A program made the translations under genes and the position numbers. 64,000 nucleotides of DNA from Candidatus Gastranaerophilales bacterium (GTDB taxonomy: Bacteria; Cyanobacteriota; Vampirovibrionia; Gastranaerophilales; Gastranaerophilaceae), in contig CALVEM010000008.1 of NCBI GenBank assembly GCA_944326605.1, positions 1 through 64,000 of the forward strand. The letters run 5' to 3'. Of this stretch, positions 1-58,240 are shown one piece after another; position 1 is the stretch's first letter, and each line of letters starts with the position of its first letter. Below the pieces are notes generated by a model, which saw only the letters and a program-made list of their open reading frames with translations, made no database searches and was not told the origin of the DNA.

Positions 1-128
1 CTGAAATAAATTCAGGATGACGGAAATAGATTGACTTCTTGACCTCCGGGCTTCTTGCCCTCTATTTAGCCGACGAGGGCCCCCCCCCCGAAGTTACATA
101 CTTTGCATAAATTTAACAGCTTTTCCAT
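1..128 (-). CDS. 5' end of a probable prepilin gene with poly-G leader, off-frame at G10, cut by window edge
   Basis: An ATG at 128-126 lies two bases after the stop codon of the DUF512 gene, behind AAAGGGG, which is itself inside the end of that gene. As given, the frame reads MEKLLNLCKVCNFGGGALVG and stops. With 11 (or 8) G it stays open to base 1 of the window; with 9 G it also stops. The arrangement (ATG, 13 codons, G10, then DNA resembling dispersed repeats) matches four prepilin loci at 45-56 kb, so I infer a prepilin. Its FTLAEV segment would lie outside the window, so the product is not proven. No promoter of its own is evident; it could be cotranscribed with the upstream gene. Confidence 0.5.
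80..89. repeat. C10 homopolymer tract, phase-variation candidate 1
   Basis: Ten C on the plus strand (G10 in the coding strand of the minus-strand leader ORF). Its left flank ends GAGGG and its right flank is GAAG. Only lengths of 8, 11 and so on keep the leader ORF open. Confidence 0.75.
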
Positions 129-2022: not shown

Positions 2023-2751
2023 TTAATATGTCATCTGCCAGCCGTCTTCTATTATTTTACCAATACCTGTAGGGCCAACATTTGTCATATCTATTGTAGA
2101 ATCTTCTGTCCACCTGCTATCATGAACAAGTCCATTAGGAGTTACATCCATATAAAAATAATCTCGTCCTGAAATATTTGGACCTTGAGTGCCATTGATA
2201 TCTACTTCAACACCCATCGCTTGTCCGGCATTAGCTCCGTTATTTTGAACTTGATCATTCTCATCAACTTTGCCATCACCATTTAAGTCAACATCAGCAT
2301 CTGACATTTCAAGTCCTCCAGTGTCAAAACATAACGCAGCGCCGCTCGCAAGTACTACAGTAGCATAGCAGCTCCATCCTTCCATATTAACTTCTTTGGT
2401 TCCGTCTAATGATGTATAGTAATGCGCAAAACAGGAGCCGTTATCTCCTGTGTAATATTTCCCGCCGCAATCTTTCACAACTTTGAAATAATTTTTTACA
2501 AATTTATTTAGTTCATCTTTATTACCTCTTATACGTCCTTCACTTAAAGATACAAGATTATTGTCTGTCATATACATTTTTACAGCCTGTCCGACTTCGC
2601 TATATACCTTGTGGAGCTGAGTTACATAAACTTTTCTCTGATGATTTTGCATTAATGTCGGAACCGTCATTGCAGAAACAACACCTATAATCCCGAGAGT
2701 AACCAATACTTCGGCAAGGGTAAAAGCTTTGTATTTAAACAATCTTTTCAT
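2023..2751 (-). CDS. Type IV prepilin-like protein, intact, no homopolymer tract
   Basis: A 242-aa protein. A short leader (MKRLFKYKA) precedes FTLAEVLVTLGIIGVV, a prepilin peptidase site (A/F, with Glu at mature +5) followed by the hydrophobic pilin helix. Residues 155-166 (DLNGDGKVDEND) match an EF-hand-type calcium loop. Cysteines in the globular part suggest disulfides, and it ends GWQMTY. Its first ~45 mature residues are nearly identical to the tract-bearing prepilin at 45.1 kb. It is monocistronic: a GGAGGT ribosome-binding site, its own promoter and a terminator. Whether it builds a pilus, a pseudopilus or a competence fibre is not shown by context. Confidence 0.88.
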   Translation of the reverse strand: MKRLFKYKAFTLAEVLVTLGIIGVVSAMTVPTLMQNHQRKVYVTQLHKVYSEVGQAVKMYMTDNNLVSLSEGRIRGNKDELNKFVKNYFKVVKDCGGKYYTGDNGSCFAHYYTSLDGTKEVNMEGWSCYATVVLASGAALCFDTGGLEMSDADVDLNGDGKVDENDQVQNNGANAGQAMGVEVDINGTQGPNISGRDYFYMDVTPNGLVHDSRWTEDSTIDMTNVGPTGIGKIIEDGWQMTY

Positions 2752-2791: not shown

Positions 2792-2820
2792 ATTATAACA
2801 TTTTTTTATAAGATTTTCAA
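2792..2820 (-). promoter_or_regulatory. Sigma-70-like promoter of the intact prepilin gene
   Basis: On the minus strand: TTGAAA, 17-base spacer, TATAAT, upstream of a 5' leader with the GGAGGT ribosome-binding site. The spacing is optimal. Confidence 0.6.
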
Positions 2821-2842
2821 CCGAAAGACAAAAGTCTTTACA

Positions 2843-3220
2843 TCAGACAAATAACTTTACAACCGCATCACCAAAAAGCAAAACGCCTATTAGAATTGCA
2901 ACTACCGAGGCAAACATTACTGCACCTGCTGAAATATCCTTTGCCATACCCACAAGTTTTGAATATCTGTTATGAAAAACAGCGTCAAGAGAAAATTCTA
3001 CCGCAGAATTTAACATCTCAGTCACTATTACAAATGAAATAGTCAAAAGAAGTATACACATACGCTCTATACTAAAATCCAGAACGATTGCAAGTGCAAG
3101 AACCGCCATTGCAATACAAAAATGAACTCTTATATTTATCTCGGATTTTAGCACAAGACGCATACCTTTACGTGCATTTTTAAATGTATTTGTAAATCCC
3201 TGCTGTTTAAATTTTGTCAT
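2843..3220 (-). CDS. dgkA: Diacylglycerol kinase / undecaprenol kinase
   Basis: A 125-aa inner-membrane kinase with three predicted membrane helices. The family signature is clear: residues 68-75 EMLNSAVE contain the catalytic and metal-binding glutamates, and KDISAGAV follows. It phosphorylates a membrane lipid alcohol; in Gram-positive-type loci this is undecaprenol. It overlaps the 3' end of ybeY by 14 bases, and the order pgpH-ybeY-dgkA is a widely conserved bacterial operon. Confidence 0.93.
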   Translation of the reverse strand: MTKFKQQGFTNTFKNARKGMRLVLKSEINIRVHFCIAMAVLALAIVLDFSIERMCILLLTISFVIVTEMLNSAVEFSLDAVFHNRYSKLVGMAKDISAGAVMFASVVAILIGVLLFGDAVVKLFV

Positions 3221-3713
3221 ACCCTATACTTTCCAGCGCTCTGTTTTGTAAATCTATAACAAAATTATAATCTTCTTCTGTCTGATGGTCAAATCCCAAA
3301 AGATGTAATATCCCATGACTTATAAGAAAAGCAAGCTCATATTCCTTTGTAACATCTTTTTTTCCAGCTTCTTCAATAACTTTATCAAGCGCTATTATTA
3401 CTTCACCAAGATTAATTTCTCCGTCGAAAATAATCTTTTCATCACTATCGGCAAAAATTGCAAATGTAATTATATCCGCAGGATAATCTTTGTTCCTGTA
3501 CTCCCTGTTTATCTGATGAGTTTTCTTACTGTCACAATAAAGAAAATCAAATGATATCGTATCGTAAACAAATCCGTTTAAGCAGCATTTTGCATAAACA
3601 TCAGGCAGGGAAAGGTAAAATCTCAAAATTTCTCTTGCTTTATTTATAAATTCTTTTTCATCAATTTCCCGGCTTTGATAAATGTTTTCACTGAAAATAT
3701 TAAAATCAGGCAT
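3207..3713 (-). CDS. ybeY: Endoribonuclease YbeY (rRNA maturation)
   Basis: A 168-aa protein with the zinc-binding motif HGILHLLGFDH near the C-terminus (HGxLHxxGxDH). The family acts in 16S rRNA 3'-end maturation and 70S quality control. I chose the ATG at 3713 over a longer reading from 3758: it overlaps the last 8 bases of the pgpH gene and is preceded by GAGGAT within that gene. It is the middle gene of the pgpH-ybeY-dgkA operon. Confidence 0.94.
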   Translation of the reverse strand: MPDFNIFSENIYQSREIDEKEFINKAREILRFYLSLPDVYAKCCLNGFVYDTISFDFLYCDSKKTHQINREYRNKDYPADIITFAIFADSDEKIIFDGEINLGEVIIALDKVIEEAGKKDVTKEYELAFLISHGILHLLGFDHQTEEDYNFVIDLQNRALESIGYDKI

Positions 3714-5922
3714 CTTTATCCTCATCAGATTTTTTAGGTTCTTCTGTCTTTTTCTCACCTTCCAGCTGTTTTATTTTATTTTCGAGATCTTCATCAAGAA
3801 GTTTTGCCGGCATATTGATTTTTTGCTTCTGGAGTTCTTCCGCTAAATTTTCCTGATATTTAATTCTGTTATGCTGCATTCCGCGCAAGATACGTGAAAA
3901 TGTTGATGCAATAGTTTTTATATCTTTTAAAGTTAAAGGGCTGTCTGACAATTGTCCGTCATTCAATCTTTCAACAATAATCTTATTTATCATTCCCTCA
4001 ATTTCCTCAGGTGTAGGATTTTTTAAGGAACGAACAGCAGATTCCACAGCATCAGCAATCATCAAAATTGCAGTTTCTTTTGTATTAGGCTTAGGTCCGG
4101 TATATCTAAATTGTTCTTCTTTAACATTTTCGACTCCCTCTTCTTTTACTGCCTGATTATAAAAATAACTTGCAAGTCCCTCACCGTGATGCTGGAGAAT
4201 AAAGTTTTGTATAACCTGCGGGAGATGGTACTCTTTAGCAATTTCAATACCGTCTTTAGGATGTGCTGTAATAATCATCTTACTAATTCTCGGAGTAAAC
4301 TTGTTATGCGGATTTTCAATTAAAAAGTAAGACTGATTTTCAACAAAGAACAAAGGTCTTTTTAATTTTCCAATATCATGATATAACGCCCCGACACGGG
4401 CAAGTATAGGATCTGCACCGATTGCTTCCGCTGCTGCTTCACACAAATTGGAAACCATTAAACTGTGATGATAAGTTCCGGGCGCATCCATTTGAAGGCG
4501 TTTTAAAAGTTTTGAATTATGATCGCCAAGTTCTGCAAGACCGTATGATGTTATAATCTTAAACGTACTTTCAAACAACGGTAAAGAACCGAGGGTAATA
4601 ATAGAACTCAATATACCGTTTAAAAATATAAAAGAAATATCTTTTAAAATCAGGACATTATCAACATCTATAAGACATTTTTCAAGAATATAAATACTTA
4701 AAACGATTATCACTCCGGCAACAGAAATATTAAAACCAATTTTAATTAAATCAACTCGTTTTGCATACTTTATCTGTGACATTAAAATAACGGAAAATAT
4801 AGTCAACAGTATAAAAGTAACAACAAATTGAATATTGTATTGATACCCTACTGCCATTACAGAAAGCATCATTACAGAAGCAACAAGAGCAACACGCGGA
4901 TTTGTAAAAATTGACATCAACATCAAAAATGCCGTAATAGGTATAACGTAAGGAGAAAAACCTATAGGGAGCATCACACCTATTAATGCGAGCAGCATTG
5001 ATAAAACAGCAGAAATTGAAAGATATCTGGGTTCCAGATATTCTTTTTCAAAGAATTTCATAAATCCTATAAACAGAGCTGTCGCAATAAATACAATAAT
5101 ATATATACCTGCAAGTCCCTGCCAGTTCAATTCATACACGTTATACCCCGCCTGACGGAGCGCATCTCTTTTTAATCTTGTAACAGGCTCGCCTTCAAAC
5201 AGGATTTTATCGCCTTTTTGGAAAACAACTTCATAGGGTTTGACAGAATTTTGAGCATTTTTTCTCGCAATTTCAGTTGCAAATTCATCAACAACCAGAT
5301 TAGGCACTATAACTTGTTCTAAAAGAGCAGTTATAACAGATACCTGACGTCTTGAAACATTTGAGACAAGATTATTCAATATAACTTTGTCAATGTTATC
5401 TTTTTCGTAATCCTTTTCAGTTATCCCTTTTTGCAAAATATTTGTAAGTGTCAGGGCAGACTTGTCAAAAACTTCATGTAGACTGTTATCATCAGCTTTT
5501 AATAGATAATTTATAACAAAATCCCGTTTAGTATTATCAGAAAGATCAAACAAAATTCCCACTTCTTCGCGTTTTACAGCATCTGACGTATCTTTACGGC
5601 GTATCTGCATAATTGAAGACTGAAGCGTCTGCAAATTTCCTTTTATAAAATCATCTTCAGCCGGAGCCATAATAGGTTCGATTTTCTGTGCAACTTCTTT
5701 TTTATGCTGTTCCGTGCGTTTTACGTCCTCAACAATTAATGTTTTCTGAGCAATTATGTCACGTTTACTTATCCCGTTTTCAATAATATTTTGGAAAAAG
5801 AAATTCTGCGACGAAATAATTGCGGTCAAAATTACCGTAAATACTAAAAAAGAAATAACTTTAACAGTTTGCGAAGAACTAAAAAAATCGCCTATTTTCG
5901 AAATAAATTCCAATTTTGCCAT
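3706..5922 (-). CDS. pgpH: 7TM-HD cyclic-di-AMP phosphodiesterase
   Basis: A 738-aa membrane protein. An N-terminal anchor helix is followed by an extracytoplasmic 7TMR-HDED-type domain to about residue 270, a block of seven membrane helices to about 450, and a cytoplasmic HD domain (ALYHDIGKLKRP; later HHGEG). The PgpH family hydrolyses c-di-AMP to pApA. A charged tail (EGEKKTEEPKKSDEDKDA) follows the HD domain. The window also encodes the matching synthase CdaA at 12.2 kb. The start is supported by AAGGTG upstream. Confidence 0.92.
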   Translation of the reverse strand: MAKLEFISKIGDFFSSSQTVKVISFLVFTVILTAIISSQNFFFQNIIENGISKRDIIAQKTLIVEDVKRTEQHKKEVAQKIEPIMAPAEDDFIKGNLQTLQSSIMQIRRKDTSDAVKREEVGILFDLSDNTKRDFVINYLLKADDNSLHEVFDKSALTLTNILQKGITEKDYEKDNIDKVILNNLVSNVSRRQVSVITALLEQVIVPNLVVDEFATEIARKNAQNSVKPYEVVFQKGDKILFEGEPVTRLKRDALRQAGYNVYELNWQGLAGIYIIVFIATALFIGFMKFFEKEYLEPRYLSISAVLSMLLALIGVMLPIGFSPYVIPITAFLMLMSIFTNPRVALVASVMMLSVMAVGYQYNIQFVVTFILLTIFSVILMSQIKYAKRVDLIKIGFNISVAGVIIVLSIYILEKCLIDVDNVLILKDISFIFLNGILSSIITLGSLPLFESTFKIITSYGLAELGDHNSKLLKRLQMDAPGTYHHSLMVSNLCEAAAEAIGADPILARVGALYHDIGKLKRPLFFVENQSYFLIENPHNKFTPRISKMIITAHPKDGIEIAKEYHLPQVIQNFILQHHGEGLASYFYNQAVKEEGVENVKEEQFRYTGPKPNTKETAILMIADAVESAVRSLKNPTPEEIEGMINKIIVERLNDGQLSDSPLTLKDIKTIASTFSRILRGMQHNRIKYQENLAEELQKQKINMPAKLLDEDLENKIKQLEGEKKTEEPKKSDEDKDA

Positions 5923-31687: not shown

Positions 31688-32222
31688 CATAAGATATGTT
31701 ATAGGTATATTTTCCTCTCTTGAGAGAGGAAAATATACGCAAACAGAGGATAAGAAGATAAGAGGGCAAGCTATTTATGGTGCGCGAAGCGCACGAAAAA
31801 ATTATCCTCTCTCCCCATTGGGGAGAGAGTTAGAGAGAGGGGCTTTTAATAATTACTGCTTAACGAAACAATAACAAAACGAGTGCTGTTTGAGCGGTAA
31901 AATCAGATCCTGAAACGAGTTCAGGATGACAAATATATAGCGAGTTCACTCGTTTCAGGTTGAGTTTAGCAGTAATTAAATAATCAGCGTGTTTCTCTTT
32001 CTTTGCTTAATTTCTTTCTACTCTTACATTGTCGGCATTAAACGGGTCTGCCGGCAATGCGCTTTGCATCGCAACAAAACGGATTGTGAGCTGAGGCTGG
32101 AGTGGCGGATGCGTTGAGCATTCGACACGCAATGCCGTTAATCGCGAGCAACCAAGTAAGAAAGAAATTAAGTGCGGGGTCTGGGGATGCATAATCCCCA
32201 CGTACCAATAACATATCTTATG
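31688..32222. mobile_element. MITE-like element, copy A
   Basis: 535 bp bounded by inverted repeats CATAAGATATGTTAT (31688-31702) and ATAACATATCTTATG (32208-32222), each itself partly palindromic. The same sequence, inverted and about 30 bp longer, lies at 57674-58240. No transposase or credible ORF inside. Within it are hairpins (GTATATTTTCCTCTC with its inverse), a CCTGAAACGAGTTCAGG palindrome (31906-31930) and a nested pair AATTACTGCT / AGCAGTAATT (31851-31977). It is higher in GC than the flanks. Mobilised in trans, if at all. Confidence 0.8.
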
Positions 32223-45046: not shown

Positions 45047-45074
45047 AAAAGAGGGCATCAGCCCTCTTTTTTTT
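45047..45074. terminator. Bidirectional terminator between pnp and the convergent prepilin gene
   Basis: GAGGGC-ATCA-GCCCTC flanked by A6 and T8, overlapping the minus-strand prepilin stop codon. Confidence 0.85.
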
Positions 45075-45938
45075 AATAATTCATCTGCCACCCGTCATCC
45101 ATAATTTTGCCAAATGCACCGGTATATGACCCTTTTGAAGAATCAGTAACTAATCCGTATTCTTCAAATGCATAATCTTTTATAGTACCGTCATTATCAA
45201 TAAACATAACAAAATAATCCCTGCCGAAAATATTAGGTCCGCTTGTTCCATTAACATCAACCTCTATAGTAGCGACAGCACCTTTTAAATTAGTCGTACT
45301 GCCTTCCTGCTCGTCATCTTCATTAATACTGCCAGAACCATTCTCAACATCAATACAAAGTATGGCTCCACTTGCGAGTGTGATAACCCGATTACAAGTA
45401 GGATTACCGCCTGATATAACAGTTGAAGAATTTATATAGCCGTATTGCGAAGCAAAACAGTCTTTTACTGCACTACCGCAGTCTTTAACAACTTTAAGGT
45501 GAGAACTTATAAAATCATTCAAGCCGTCAATAGTATTAAATCTTGACTCCTTTAAATTGACAGCATTTTTTTCTGTAATGTAAAGAGATAAAGCCTGTGA
45601 CATTTCACTATAGACTTTATGCAATTGCGTTACATAAACTTTTCGCTGGTGATTTTGCATCAATGTCGGAACAGTCATTGCTGATACAACTCCGATTATT
45701 CCTAAGGTTACTAAGACCTCTGCTAAGGTAAATGCACATTTCTTTAGACGATAGGACGTTAAGACGTTAGGACAATAAGTTCGTTTCAGTGAAGAGAGTT
45801 TCTCTGCATCCCTTCCTCTGGGGAGGAAAGTATTATTTACGATACTGGCTTTGCGACTTCGCGTCTTTGCATCTTTGCTTCTACCTAGCTGAGGAGTGCC
45901 CCCCCCCCGACATTTTCAGTTTCAAATAATCTTTTCAT
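45073..45938 (-). CDS. Phase-variable prepilin candidate, off-frame at G10
   Basis: ATG at 45938 behind AAGGGG. The frame as given reads MKRLFETENVGGGALLS then TAG; at G9 it also stops. With 11 (or 8) G it runs without a stop to 45073 (about 288 aa). In that reading a 69-residue leader precedes FTLAEVLVTLGIIGVV. The mature N-terminal ~45 residues match the intact prepilin at 2.0 kb, which also begins MKRLF but has only a 9-residue leader. Repeat-like DNA fills the difference (45.73-45.89 kb). A degenerate calcium-loop-like stretch (DVENGSGSINEDDEQ) sits where the paralog has its EF-hand loop. Confidence 0.75.
45899..45908. repeat. C10 homopolymer tract, phase-variation candidate 2
   Basis: Ten C on the plus strand (G10 in the coding strand) at codons 11-14 of the prepilin gene. 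Plus-strand left flank AGCTGAGGAGTG, right flank GACAT. Confidence 0.85.
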
Positions 45939-47156: not shown

Positions 47157-48112
47157 ATGTTTAACAGAGAAGCTTTGAGGTGCCCCCCCCCCAACAGGAT
47201 AACGATGTAACAAGGGATTACAGGATTGTAAAGTTAAGGCTGCCGAAGATCAAGATGTCCGGAAGGCAAGCTGACGTTCATGAGATCCTGAAACGAGTTC
47301 AGGATGACATTAATATTTTCCCGAAACGAACTTGTTCACTTATTAACTTATTTTCTTATTCACTTCATAAAAAAGCCGCATTTACTCTGGCTGAAGTCCT
47401 TATCACACTCGGAATTATAGGTGTCGTTGCGGCAATGACAATTCCTGTTTTGATATCTAAATACCAGGAAAGAGTTTGGCTAACATCATTTAAAAAAACA
47501 TATTCTATCCTATATCAAGCATATCTGCGTGCACCTCAAGATTACGGAACCGCAAATACTTGGTGTGCCGAGGGAAATACTGATTGTGCAAAAACATATT
47601 TTGATATTTTGTCACAATATCTAAAAACAGCACAAATTTGGGGATTTAACTCACCTTTTGACAATTCAATAAGAGGGAAATATCGTGATTTAGACGGCAG
47701 CACAATGGGACATGTGAATGTTTTTCCGGACAATAAATATTATAATTTTGCATTAAATGATGGCACATTAATTGGTATATCATATTCCGGAGATTTGAAT
47801 GCACCGTTATTACAGGTTGATACCAACGGTCTAAAAGGTCCAAATCAATTAGGAAAGGATTTCTTTTACATATCTTTAATTCGAAGGAATGACAATCCTG
47901 TTATAGGCGGCTATTCATTGTGGTGGTTAGGGAGCGATAAAGTTTACTGCACAAATGCGCAGCACAGCGGCTGGTGGAGCGGAGGCGGATGTTCTTTATG
48001 GATAATTTCAACCGGCAATATGGATTATCTGCATAGGAATTTAACTTCAGATGAATGGAAAAAAGCTGTAAAAAGCTTACTTCTTGATGCGTATAAAGAT
48101 TCTTTAAATTAA
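47157..48112 (+). CDS. Phase-variable prepilin candidate, off-frame at C10
   Basis: ATG at 47157 behind AAGGAG. As given: MFNREALRCPPPNRITM then TAA; at C9 it also stops. With 11 (or 8) C it is open to the stop at 48112 (about 318 aa). The leader is then 75 residues, far longer than usual, and includes a CCTGAAACGAGTTCAGG palindrome read as coding DNA. FTLAEVLITLGIIGVVAAMT follows, then a pilin body with LLQVDTNGLKGPNQLGKDFF. A GTG at 47180, inside the tract, could start the same frame but has no ribosome-binding site. Confidence 0.78.
47183..47192. repeat. C10 homopolymer tract, phase-variation candidate 3
   Basis: Ten C in the coding strand of a plus-strand prepilin gene, at codons 9-12. 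Left flank AGCTTTGAGGTG, right flank AACAGG. Confidence 0.85.
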
Positions 48113-49522: not shown

Positions 49523-50318
49523 ATGGATATTAGAGAGCTAAGAATTGCCCCCCCCCCGAAAAACACTCGACTTTTAAGGGATTAACGGGTTTTACATTAG
49601 CTGAAGTTTTGATTACTATAGGAATTATAGGTATCGTTGCAGCTTTTACAATGCCGGTTCTAATCAACCAGACAAAAAAGAAAGAACTACAGGTTGCCTT
49701 TAAAACAACTTACTCTGAGCTTAACCAAGCAGCTAAACTTTATTATGTACACGAGGGTATATCATTTCCGGAAGATTATACAACAAGGCACCAGGCAGAT
49801 GGGAATTTAACTTCAACAATAAAAAAATTAATGAAATATTTCCATGGCGGCAGTCAATATAGTTCTTCTTACTGGGGAAATGAAGAAGAAGTCTTGTCCT
49901 ATGATATATACATTCTTAATAATAAAGAGAAGAATGATGGTACAATTTGCAATAACACCGGATACTGGACAAACAATTCAGGAAAAATATATTCATTTAA
50001 TGACCCTGCGACTGATACATTAACGAACGGACCAATTATTTGTGTAGATACAAACGGACAAAAAAACCTAACAGATATGGATATGATGTTTTCTTATTTA
50101 TGTTTACAATAGATAATACTGTTATTCCTATGGGGATTAAACACCCAAATAACCCAACCAATAACAGCATTTCAATAAATGGATTTGTATCAGGTGCTGA
50201 ATATTGTACATATTCAAAAGATACAAGAGCAGGAGGTTTCTCGTGTGCATCGTATGCACTAAGTGATACAAGTCCTGAAGATCCTTCTAAAAGCTATTGG
50301 AGAGATTTTCTTAAATAG
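49523..50318 (+). CDS. Phase-variable prepilin candidate with two homopolymer frameshifts
   Basis: ATG at 49523 behind GGAGG. At C10 it reads MDIRELRIAPPPKNTRLLRD then stop; at 11 (or 8) it opens to a 23-residue leader ending GLTG and FTLAEVLITIGIIGIV. A second break follows: near 50060 the frame leaves the pilin pattern in a run of seven A and stops at 50112. One more A would restore VDTNGQKKPNRYGYDVFLF and continue to 50318 (about 265 aa in all). Either it is truly broken, or both homopolymers were called one base short. Confidence 0.7.
49548..49557. repeat. C10 homopolymer tract, phase-variation candidate 4
   Basis: Ten C in the coding strand, at codons 9-12. Left flank AGCTAAGAATTG, right flank GAAAAA. 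Confidence 0.85.
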
Positions 50319-54941: not shown

Positions 54942-55702
54942 TTATTTGCACTTTGTTTTAGTTTTCCAATTCAAATCATCACAATGAATATAATCAATAT
55001 TGTCATTAACCATTACCCAGGAGGAACAAGAAAACTCGTTTGTATAACATTTCAGAGTTCCATTACTGCCGTCATCATACCACCCTATTGAATTTTCATT
55101 TAAAGCTACTTGAAATACATCAATACCTAAAGTATTAGGTGCTTTTAATCCGTTTACATCAATATAAGCGTAATTCGGAGTAATTCCGATACTCATGCCG
55201 TCACTCAATATAAAAAAACGTCTTGAATTTCCCTGCTTTGTAATAAGATTCCAGGTTTGCTCTCTGAAAGGAGATTTTATAGTTTCCGGAAAACACTCCT
55301 CGCCTTTATCTATACCGCAGTCTTTCATAATATTTAGGTGTTTTGATAACGCTTGAAAAAATATATCGGAATTATACTTACCATTTTGATCATAAACACC
55401 GGTACCTTCCTCCGGCGGGAGCGGAACATATTCTGCCTCTAAATAACCAAAATCATTGCTTCCACCGTTTTCATAAATAGCAAGTCTGTATGCATTATCT
55501 AAAATTGCAACTGCTTTTTTCAATCCAACAACATATTGTCTGTCGCGGTATTTACTAATTAAAACAGGCATAGTCATAGCAGCAACAACACCGATAATAC
55601 CAAGAGTAATCAAGACCTCCGCAAGAGTAAATCCGCTAAAATGCCTTACAGGAAGCTGAGAATGCCCCCCCCCCGAAAAGCATTACTAAATAAATTTTTC
55701 AT
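54942..55702 (-). CDS. Phase-variable prepilin candidate, off-frame at G10
   Basis: ATG at 55702 behind AAGGAGGG. As given: MKNLFSNAFRGGGILSFL then TAA; G9 also stops. With 11 (or 8) G the frame is open to 54942 (about 253 aa), giving a 24-residue leader ending RHFSG and FTLAEVLITLGIIGVVAAMT. The body has the expected YIDVNGLKAPNTLGIDVFQV and several cysteines. It has the shortest and most regular leader of the minus-strand loci, which best supports the inferred fused reading. Confidence 0.8.
55665..55674. repeat. C10 homopolymer tract, phase-variation candidate 5
   Basis: Ten C on the plus strand (G10 coding). Left flank AGCTGAGAATG, right flank GAAAAG. Confidence 0.85.
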
Positions 55703-57673: not shown

Positions 57674-58240
57674 CATAAGATATGTTATCAGTATGTGGGG
57701 CTTATGCGTCCCAACACCCCGCACTTAATTTCTCTAGCTTGGTTGCTCGCGATTAACGGCATTGCGTGTCGAATGCTCAACGCATCCGCCACTCCAGCCT
57801 CAGCTCGCAATCTATTTTGTTGCGATGCAAAGCGCATTGTCGGCAGAGGGCGAACGGTCAAGGCGATGAGCCTTGCCGGCAGACCCGTTTAATGCCGACA
57901 ATGTAAGAGGAGAAAGAAATTAAGCAAAGAAAGAGAAACACGCTGATTGTTTAATTACTGCTAAACTCAACATGAAACGAGTGAACTCGCTATATATTTG
58001 TCATCCTGAACTCGTTTCAGGATCTGATTTTACCGCTCAAACAGCACTCGTTTTGTTATCGTTTCGTTAAGCAGTAATTATTAAAGCCCCTCTCTCTAAC
58101 TCTCTCCCCAATGGGGAGAGAGGACGTTTTTTCGTGCGCTTCGCGCACCGTAAATAGCTTACCCTCTTATCTTCTTATTCTCTGTTTGCGTATATTTTCC
58201 TCTACAAAGAGAGGAAAATATACCTATAACATATCTTATG
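57674..58240. mobile_element. MITE-like element, copy B (inverted relative to copy A)
   Basis: 567 bp bounded by CATAAGATATGTTAT (57674-57688) and ATAACATATCTTATG (58226-58240). It is the reverse complement of copy A with a roughly 30-bp extra segment near 57850-57880 (GGGCGAACGGTCAAGGCGAT). No transposase. It fills almost the entire spacer between radA and the HD gene, and its right end supplies the TAA stop codon of the HD gene (58236-58238). Confidence 0.8.

Follow-up and report, generated by a model that had tools for sequence, protein, structure and literature searches.

A prepilin gene with a ten-base guanine tract in its leader

The window analysed here is a 64,000-nucleotide (nt) stretch of contig CALVEM010000008.1 (positions 1 to 64,000, forward strand) from assembly GCA_944326605.1 of a Candidatus Gastranaerophilales bacterium. 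Our subject is a prepilin gene on its minus strand, at 45073-45938, whose reading frame is set by a run of ten guanines (G10) near the start codon. The gene, its parts and a paralog used for comparison are arranged as follows.

45073..45938, minus strand: tract-controlled prepilin; 288 residues at tract length 11 or 8, 17 residues as assembled; Pfam N_methyl
45899..45908, minus strand: G10 tract, codons 11-14
45733..45898, minus strand: post-tract leader up to KKCA before FTLAEV; a mosaic of repeats common to dozens of pilin leaders, lost if prepilin peptidase cuts between A and F
45073..45732, minus strand: mature pilin-like part, beginning FTLAEVLVTLGIIGVVSAMT
2023..2751, minus strand: tract-free prepilin paralog with a 9-residue leader; not switchable; comparison gene

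A preliminary description, made from the sequence alone, had reported the start site, the position of the tract, the dependence of the frame on tract length and the tract-free paralog, and each of these was reproduced. The ATG lies at 45938 and is preceded by a ribosome-binding site (AATAAGAAAGGGGAAAAA). With the G10 of the assembly the frame ends after 17 codons, and at G9 or G12 it ends after about 19, whereas at G11 or G8 it stays open for 288 codons, down to 45073. At run length 11 the product reads MKRLFETENV-GGGG-TPQLGRS...LKKCA/FTLAEVLVTLGIIGVVSAMT, with the slash at the predicted cleavage site, and this 288-residue protein carries the N_methyl motif (PF07963, 22.7 bits against a cut-off of 21.2; TIGR02532 also above cut-off). 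No in-frame ATG, GTG or TTG occurs between codons 1 and 88, and codon 88 is already beyond the cleavage site (F70), which leaves the ATG at 45938 as the sole start of these types able to yield a prepilin. The paralog at 2023-2751 reads MKRLFKYKA/FTLAEVLVTLG..., going from the shared MKRLF start through a short leader to the cleavage site; its mature N-terminus is identical to that of the tract gene for more than 40 residues, and the DNA is 74% identical over 184 nt. The G10 tract is far longer than chance and is not accidental: in 527 kb of this 34% G+C genome, runs of G or C number 87 at length 5, five at length 6, none at lengths 7-9 and nine at length 10.

Tract prepilins form a genome-wide family

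All 89 G-runs of at least 8 bases in the genome (74 G10, ten G9, two G11, one G12, one G16 and one G8) were examined, with the frame tested from a nearby ATG, preferably one with a ribosome-binding site; this nearest-start-codon assignment may be wrong for a few tract genes. Complete prepilin genes with a tract number 71, and in these the run sits 22-72 nt after the ATG, with G on the coding strand in 49 and C in 22 (31% poly-C). As assembled, 66 are OFF (early stop) and five are ON (full prepilin), a split that has P = 1.5e-7 under an expectation of one third ON, taking the genes as independent. In 67 of the 71, on both coding strands, the ON state calls for a length of 11 mod 3. The distance from ATG to run covers all three codon phases and the ON length is still 11, indicating that changes in length before the run are balanced after it.

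The preliminary description had allowed that the region upstream of FTLAEV might be an untranslated leader. This is countered by the stop codons in the post-tract leaders of the 71 genes: the pilin frame contains none in 6378 codons, compared with 416 and 545 in the other two frames, a count taken on genes chosen for an open frame, although only 2 of about 73 complete cases failed that choice. In those two the leader or the open reading frame is broken, and some other tract genes are severed by contig ends. The post-tract leader lacks an ATG in 33 of the 71 genes and has one in the rest; a start downstream of the tract, ruled out for the gene at 45073-45938, stays a candidate for the genes with a post-tract ATG (71 minus 33).

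The 2.05-Mb genome holds 114 N_methyl (prepilin-like) genes, nearly all above cut-off. A nearby tract is absent from 41 of them, and most of these with a readable start have leaders mostly of 4-28 residues. Leaders of the tract prepilins span 21-246 residues (median 101), outside the short-leader range of type IV prepilins, whose leaders are usually shorter than this. A single prepilin peptidase gene (PF01478) is present, at C1:233147, about 1 kb from dnaA (C1:231960). Three loci of this genome (L077, L103 and L122) encode very large prepilin-type proteins with open frames of more than 700 residues (FTLAEMMVVMLILSIIMAAM) and carry the same switch module as ordinary pilins.

Tracts rest at ten bases and pilins are framed one base off

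Across 33 species genomes of the genus, exact runs number 148 G9, 1621 G10 and 150 G11, so that G9 and G11 each make up about 8% of the total; single genomes hold up to 169 G10 runs. Elsewhere in the order G10 runs are mostly few, several genera being exceptions. Among the genus loci sampled, G10 pilins are mostly OFF by one base (18 of 21), and nearly every pilin with a G11 tract followed by C is ON. The same run also occurs in non-pilin genes, among others those for two GT2-type glycosyltransferases, a radical SAM protein and a methyltransferase-like protein. Every tract was read in two genomes, and there length 10 keeps the frame open in 9 of 11 non-pilin genes versus 3 of 107 pilins (Fisher P about 1e-9, a guide only, as paralogs are non-independent). 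One glycosyltransferase carries within its GT2 domain a C10 that is in frame in both species. Since the non-pilin genes are mostly in frame at 10, this is the true resting length rather than a systematic assembly error. Pilins are framed one base off the resting length of 10 and hence are OFF by default. At a frequency of about 8% for length 11, some six ON genes would be expected among about 70 pilins, and the five observed come near this figure.

The same observations bear on the alternative that the true length at the pilin loci is 11, that the assemblies drop one G and that the pilins are constantly ON. One or two missing bases would explain the exact class to which 66 of the 71 pilins belong, and those assemblies whose names can be read appear to be of the short-read metagenome type. 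However, conserved non-pilin genes with the same G10 or C10, including the glycosyltransferase found in two species, are in frame only at 10; G11, G12 and G16 are present in the same assembly; and poly-G tracts of Campylobacter are read accurately by Illumina sequencing (PMC6321876). We consider a dropped base improbable, and truncation of the tracts in assembly, a possibility that the preliminary description had named, was rejected on the strength of the other-family genes in frame at G10.

In Campylobacter, poly-G lengths peak at G9 (53%), with 26% G10 (PMC6321876), and a resting distribution that we computed from the slip rates in Table 2 of PMC8224891 gives 43% G9, 24% G10 and 3% G11. The spectrum of the genus studied here is narrower than that of Campylobacter poly-G and is centred on 10. 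As a separate observation, the non-pilin G10 or C10 genes (L073, L079, L084, L091, L290, L298 and others, encoding GT2-type glycosyltransferases, methyltransferase-like proteins and others) are candidate contingency loci in their own right.

A sister species carries an interrupted allele in the ON frame

The same gene is found in the same place on contig CALUQH010000013.1 (Candidatus Gastranaerophilales E02__bin142), and genome G006 has a locus that matches the pilin locus of this contig at 99%. Here the run is GGGGGGGAGGG (G7-A-G3), which is 11 bases long and interrupted, and the frame is open for 288 residues; the ortholog comparison suggested in the preliminary description thus returned an allele of ON length. 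It has the appearance of a form locked ON. In Campylobacter, homologues that do not vary are known to have interrupted tracts (PMC6321876).

The flanks of the two loci have diverged (mean identity 89% over a 4.3-kb alignment), whereas the pilin gene and its near flanks, about 2820-3940 of the sister locus L236 on CALUQH010000013.1, are almost identical, with sharp borders. Such sharp-bordered near-identity within diverged flanks makes a gene-sized transfer probable, and judging from these sequences the pilin gene at 45073-45938 probably moved recently between species. Among further tract genes common to this genome and G006, none other than the 45073-45938 gene matched across the tract, and the paired comparison of lengths with G006 is therefore limited to one locus.

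The interrupted allele also bears on programmed -1 ribosomal frameshifting (or polymerase slippage) at the ten-base run, by which a full pilin would be made with no change in DNA. From G10, a -1 shift leads precisely into the pilin frame, the 0-frame stops soon after the run, length 10 is nearly invariant, and a hairpin after some G-coding tracts (GGCTCCGCCGGAGGC) hinted at such a mechanism. However, the folding test gave no signal of a stable downstream structure (mean z of +0.2 for the 49 G genes and +0.1 for the 22 C genes). Frameshifting would have to work whether the mRNA carries G10 or C10 and in each of the three codon phases of the run, and it leaves G9 and G11 at about 8% each and the interrupted 11-base allele unexplained. 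We therefore disfavour it and judge it unlikely.

The switch and leader are shared among unrelated mature pilins

Within its own genome the post-tract leader at 45733-45898 has 56 matches. Identity of at least 90% over the 70 nt after the run was found for 93 pairs of tract genes, and in most of these pairs the mature parts are about 20-35% identical, the same as in any pair (median 26%). For example, these 70 nt are identical in L064, L069, L070 and L071, with mature identities of 18-26%, and 96% of them are common to L058 (G10) and L120 (G11). A common 5' module on unrelated mature parts indicates that switch and leader move or recombine independently of the mature pilin. Changes in the leader are likely to be tolerated, because prepilin peptidase should remove it.

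Shared modules could also be read as the mark of decaying pseudogenes, or of silent cassettes that donate only their mature parts by recombination. Most tract genes are OFF, 5' modules and mature parts occur in differing combinations and one locus has probably moved between species, all as such a reading would have it. On the other hand, damage beyond the tract affects only 2 of about 73 complete cases, and both the 11 mod 3 frames and the starts with ribosome-binding sites are maintained. Decay or cassette function is accordingly very improbable.

The tracts are oriented along the chromosome. G lies on the same strand along each contig whatever the direction of the gene (C1, C2, C5, C7, C8 and others in this genome), except that the strand changes once within C3 (79-116 kb) and once within C9 (13-26 kb). 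G usually occupies the strand richer in G (19 of 23 stretches), and the contigs of the second genome, G006, are much alike in this respect. The dnaA gene was not located at a switch in tract orientation. An RGCY sequence lies 5-14 nt beyond the run on the G strand in 86% of G-coding and 80% of C-coding pilin tracts, compared with 2-7% on the other side; in the window an example is at 45885-45898 on the minus strand, and the shared motif is TC-G10-C...RGCY. Such a pattern suggests a DNA motif fixed to one strand, not a coding motif. The uniform orientation could come from a replication effect on slippage or from an oriented element. A search for the tract contexts in viral contigs gave no matches. 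A speculative extension, which we advance with reserve, treats the switch as a mobile module. In this view a dispersed DNA element (TC-G10-C...RGCY), chromosome-oriented independently of gene direction, would spread into pilin leaders and plug a default-OFF frame switch into any downstream mature pilin, and some dedicated factor may keep the run at 10 or return it to that length.

Probable slipped-strand phase variation of the prepilin repertoire

Slipped-strand phase variation of a large, dispersed prepilin repertoire is in our judgement the best account of these data, with a probability of roughly 0.8. The 5' coding tract exceeds chance, a change in its length takes the gene from an intact open reading frame to an early stop or back, and lengths vary between genomes, loci or alleles, as in translational phase variation. 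The proposal in the preliminary description that the pilin is switched ON and OFF by tract length fits the frame rule in 67 of 71 genes, the G9 and G11 fractions, the non-pilin tract genes and the in-frame sister allele.

The proposed mechanism is as follows. The run sits 22-72 nt after the start, within a leader expected to be removed by prepilin peptidase, and replication slippage would change its length, giving the OFF state with an early stop at 10 and 9 and the ON state with a full prepilin at 11. With 10 as the commonest length of all tracts in the genus, in pilin genes or not, and pilin frames set one base off, any single genome would have nearly all its pilins OFF and only a few ON (5 of 71 in the present one). 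The switch plus leader would act as a dispersed module, copied or recombined onto many different mature pilins. Gene anatomy, frame rules, length spectrum, module sharing and the in-frame sister allele are established from the assembled DNA. From them we infer slippage as the cause and switching as the consequence; an OFF gene would make no protein, the long leaders would be cleaved, and sparse expression would presumably be of benefit.

Several points weigh against this account. Slippage is proposed here from assembled sequences and not from 10/11 mixtures within one strain. The 71 tract genes are paralogs with common 5' modules and not 71 independent tests. Their leaders are longer than is usual for type IV prepilins, and cleavage of these leaders is predicted. 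The sole orthologous pair differs by an interrupted tract and not by a pure G11. Finally, the uniformity of G10, above that in Campylobacter, may hint at more than simple slippage.

Should this account hold, a gut bacterium that is related to cyanobacteria but not photosynthetic would possess a very large collection of poly-G switches. Most of them would control a single surface family, and their setting would leave each cell displaying only a few pilins. The system would also offer a natural test of how resting tract length and frame together set the ON fraction, with enzymes mostly ON at 10 and pilins OFF in the same genome. Tract prepilins will be mis-annotated wherever a gene caller chooses an internal start codon, as happened in the mechanical list of open reading frames here.

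Other features of the window

Five tracts occur in the window, at 80, 45899, 47183, 49548 and 55665, representing four complete prepilins and the start of a fifth. Besides the gene described above, these are:

47157..48112, plus strand: second tract prepilin; C10 on the coding strand at 47183-47192; 318 residues at C11, 17 as assembled
49523..50112, plus strand: third tract prepilin; C10 at 49548-49557; 196 residues at C11, 20 as assembled
54942..55702, minus strand: fourth tract prepilin; G10 at 55665-55674; 253 residues at G11, 18 as assembled
1..128, minus strand: 5' end of a fifth such G10 gene; tract at 80-89; truncated by the contig edge

The neighbours of the gene at 45073-45938 encode polynucleotide phosphorylase, a PfkB-type kinase, adenylosuccinate synthetase and GAPDH; it is a lone pilin amid housekeeping genes and does not belong to a pilus operon. 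Two copies of a palindromic repeat, at 31705-31738 and 58190-58223 (GTATATTTTCCTCTC...GAGAGGAAAATATAC), are unrelated to the tracts.

Comparison with known systems

In the open-access library searched, we found no paper on phase-variable tracts in Gastranaerophilales. Rickettsia palindromic elements are dispersed repeats that lie in frame inside coding genes. The leader repeats described here are likewise dispersed and in frame; here the leader that contains them is expected to be cleaved off, and the switch is part of them.

The opa genes of Neisseria are, like the tract prepilins, a multigene surface family in which each copy has its own repeat in the leader-coding region, and a cell expresses none to several of them (PMC5354566). 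They differ in having CTCTT pentamer repeats and up to 12 genes, and in encoding outer-membrane proteins, whereas here the repeats are mononucleotide runs in about 70 genes for prepilins with long leaders of dispersed repeats. Neisseria pilC, a pilus gene with a homo-guanine tract in its leader, is turned ON and OFF by frameshift in the same manner (PMC5354566), but encodes a minor tip protein in two gene copies and not pilin subunits. The poly-G phasome of Campylobacter, with 5-81 phase-variable genes per strain, shares the poly-G tracts in an AT-rich genome, the narrow range of lengths, the surface genes and the interrupted tracts in homologues (PMC6321876). In contrast to Campylobacter, there are up to 169 exact G10 runs per genome here, with a mode of G10 and 31% poly-C among the 71 pilins, mostly in one family and OFF by default. 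Poly-G phase variation is thus already known; what looks new is its scale, the default-OFF setting, the shared switch module and the orientation of tracts along each contig.
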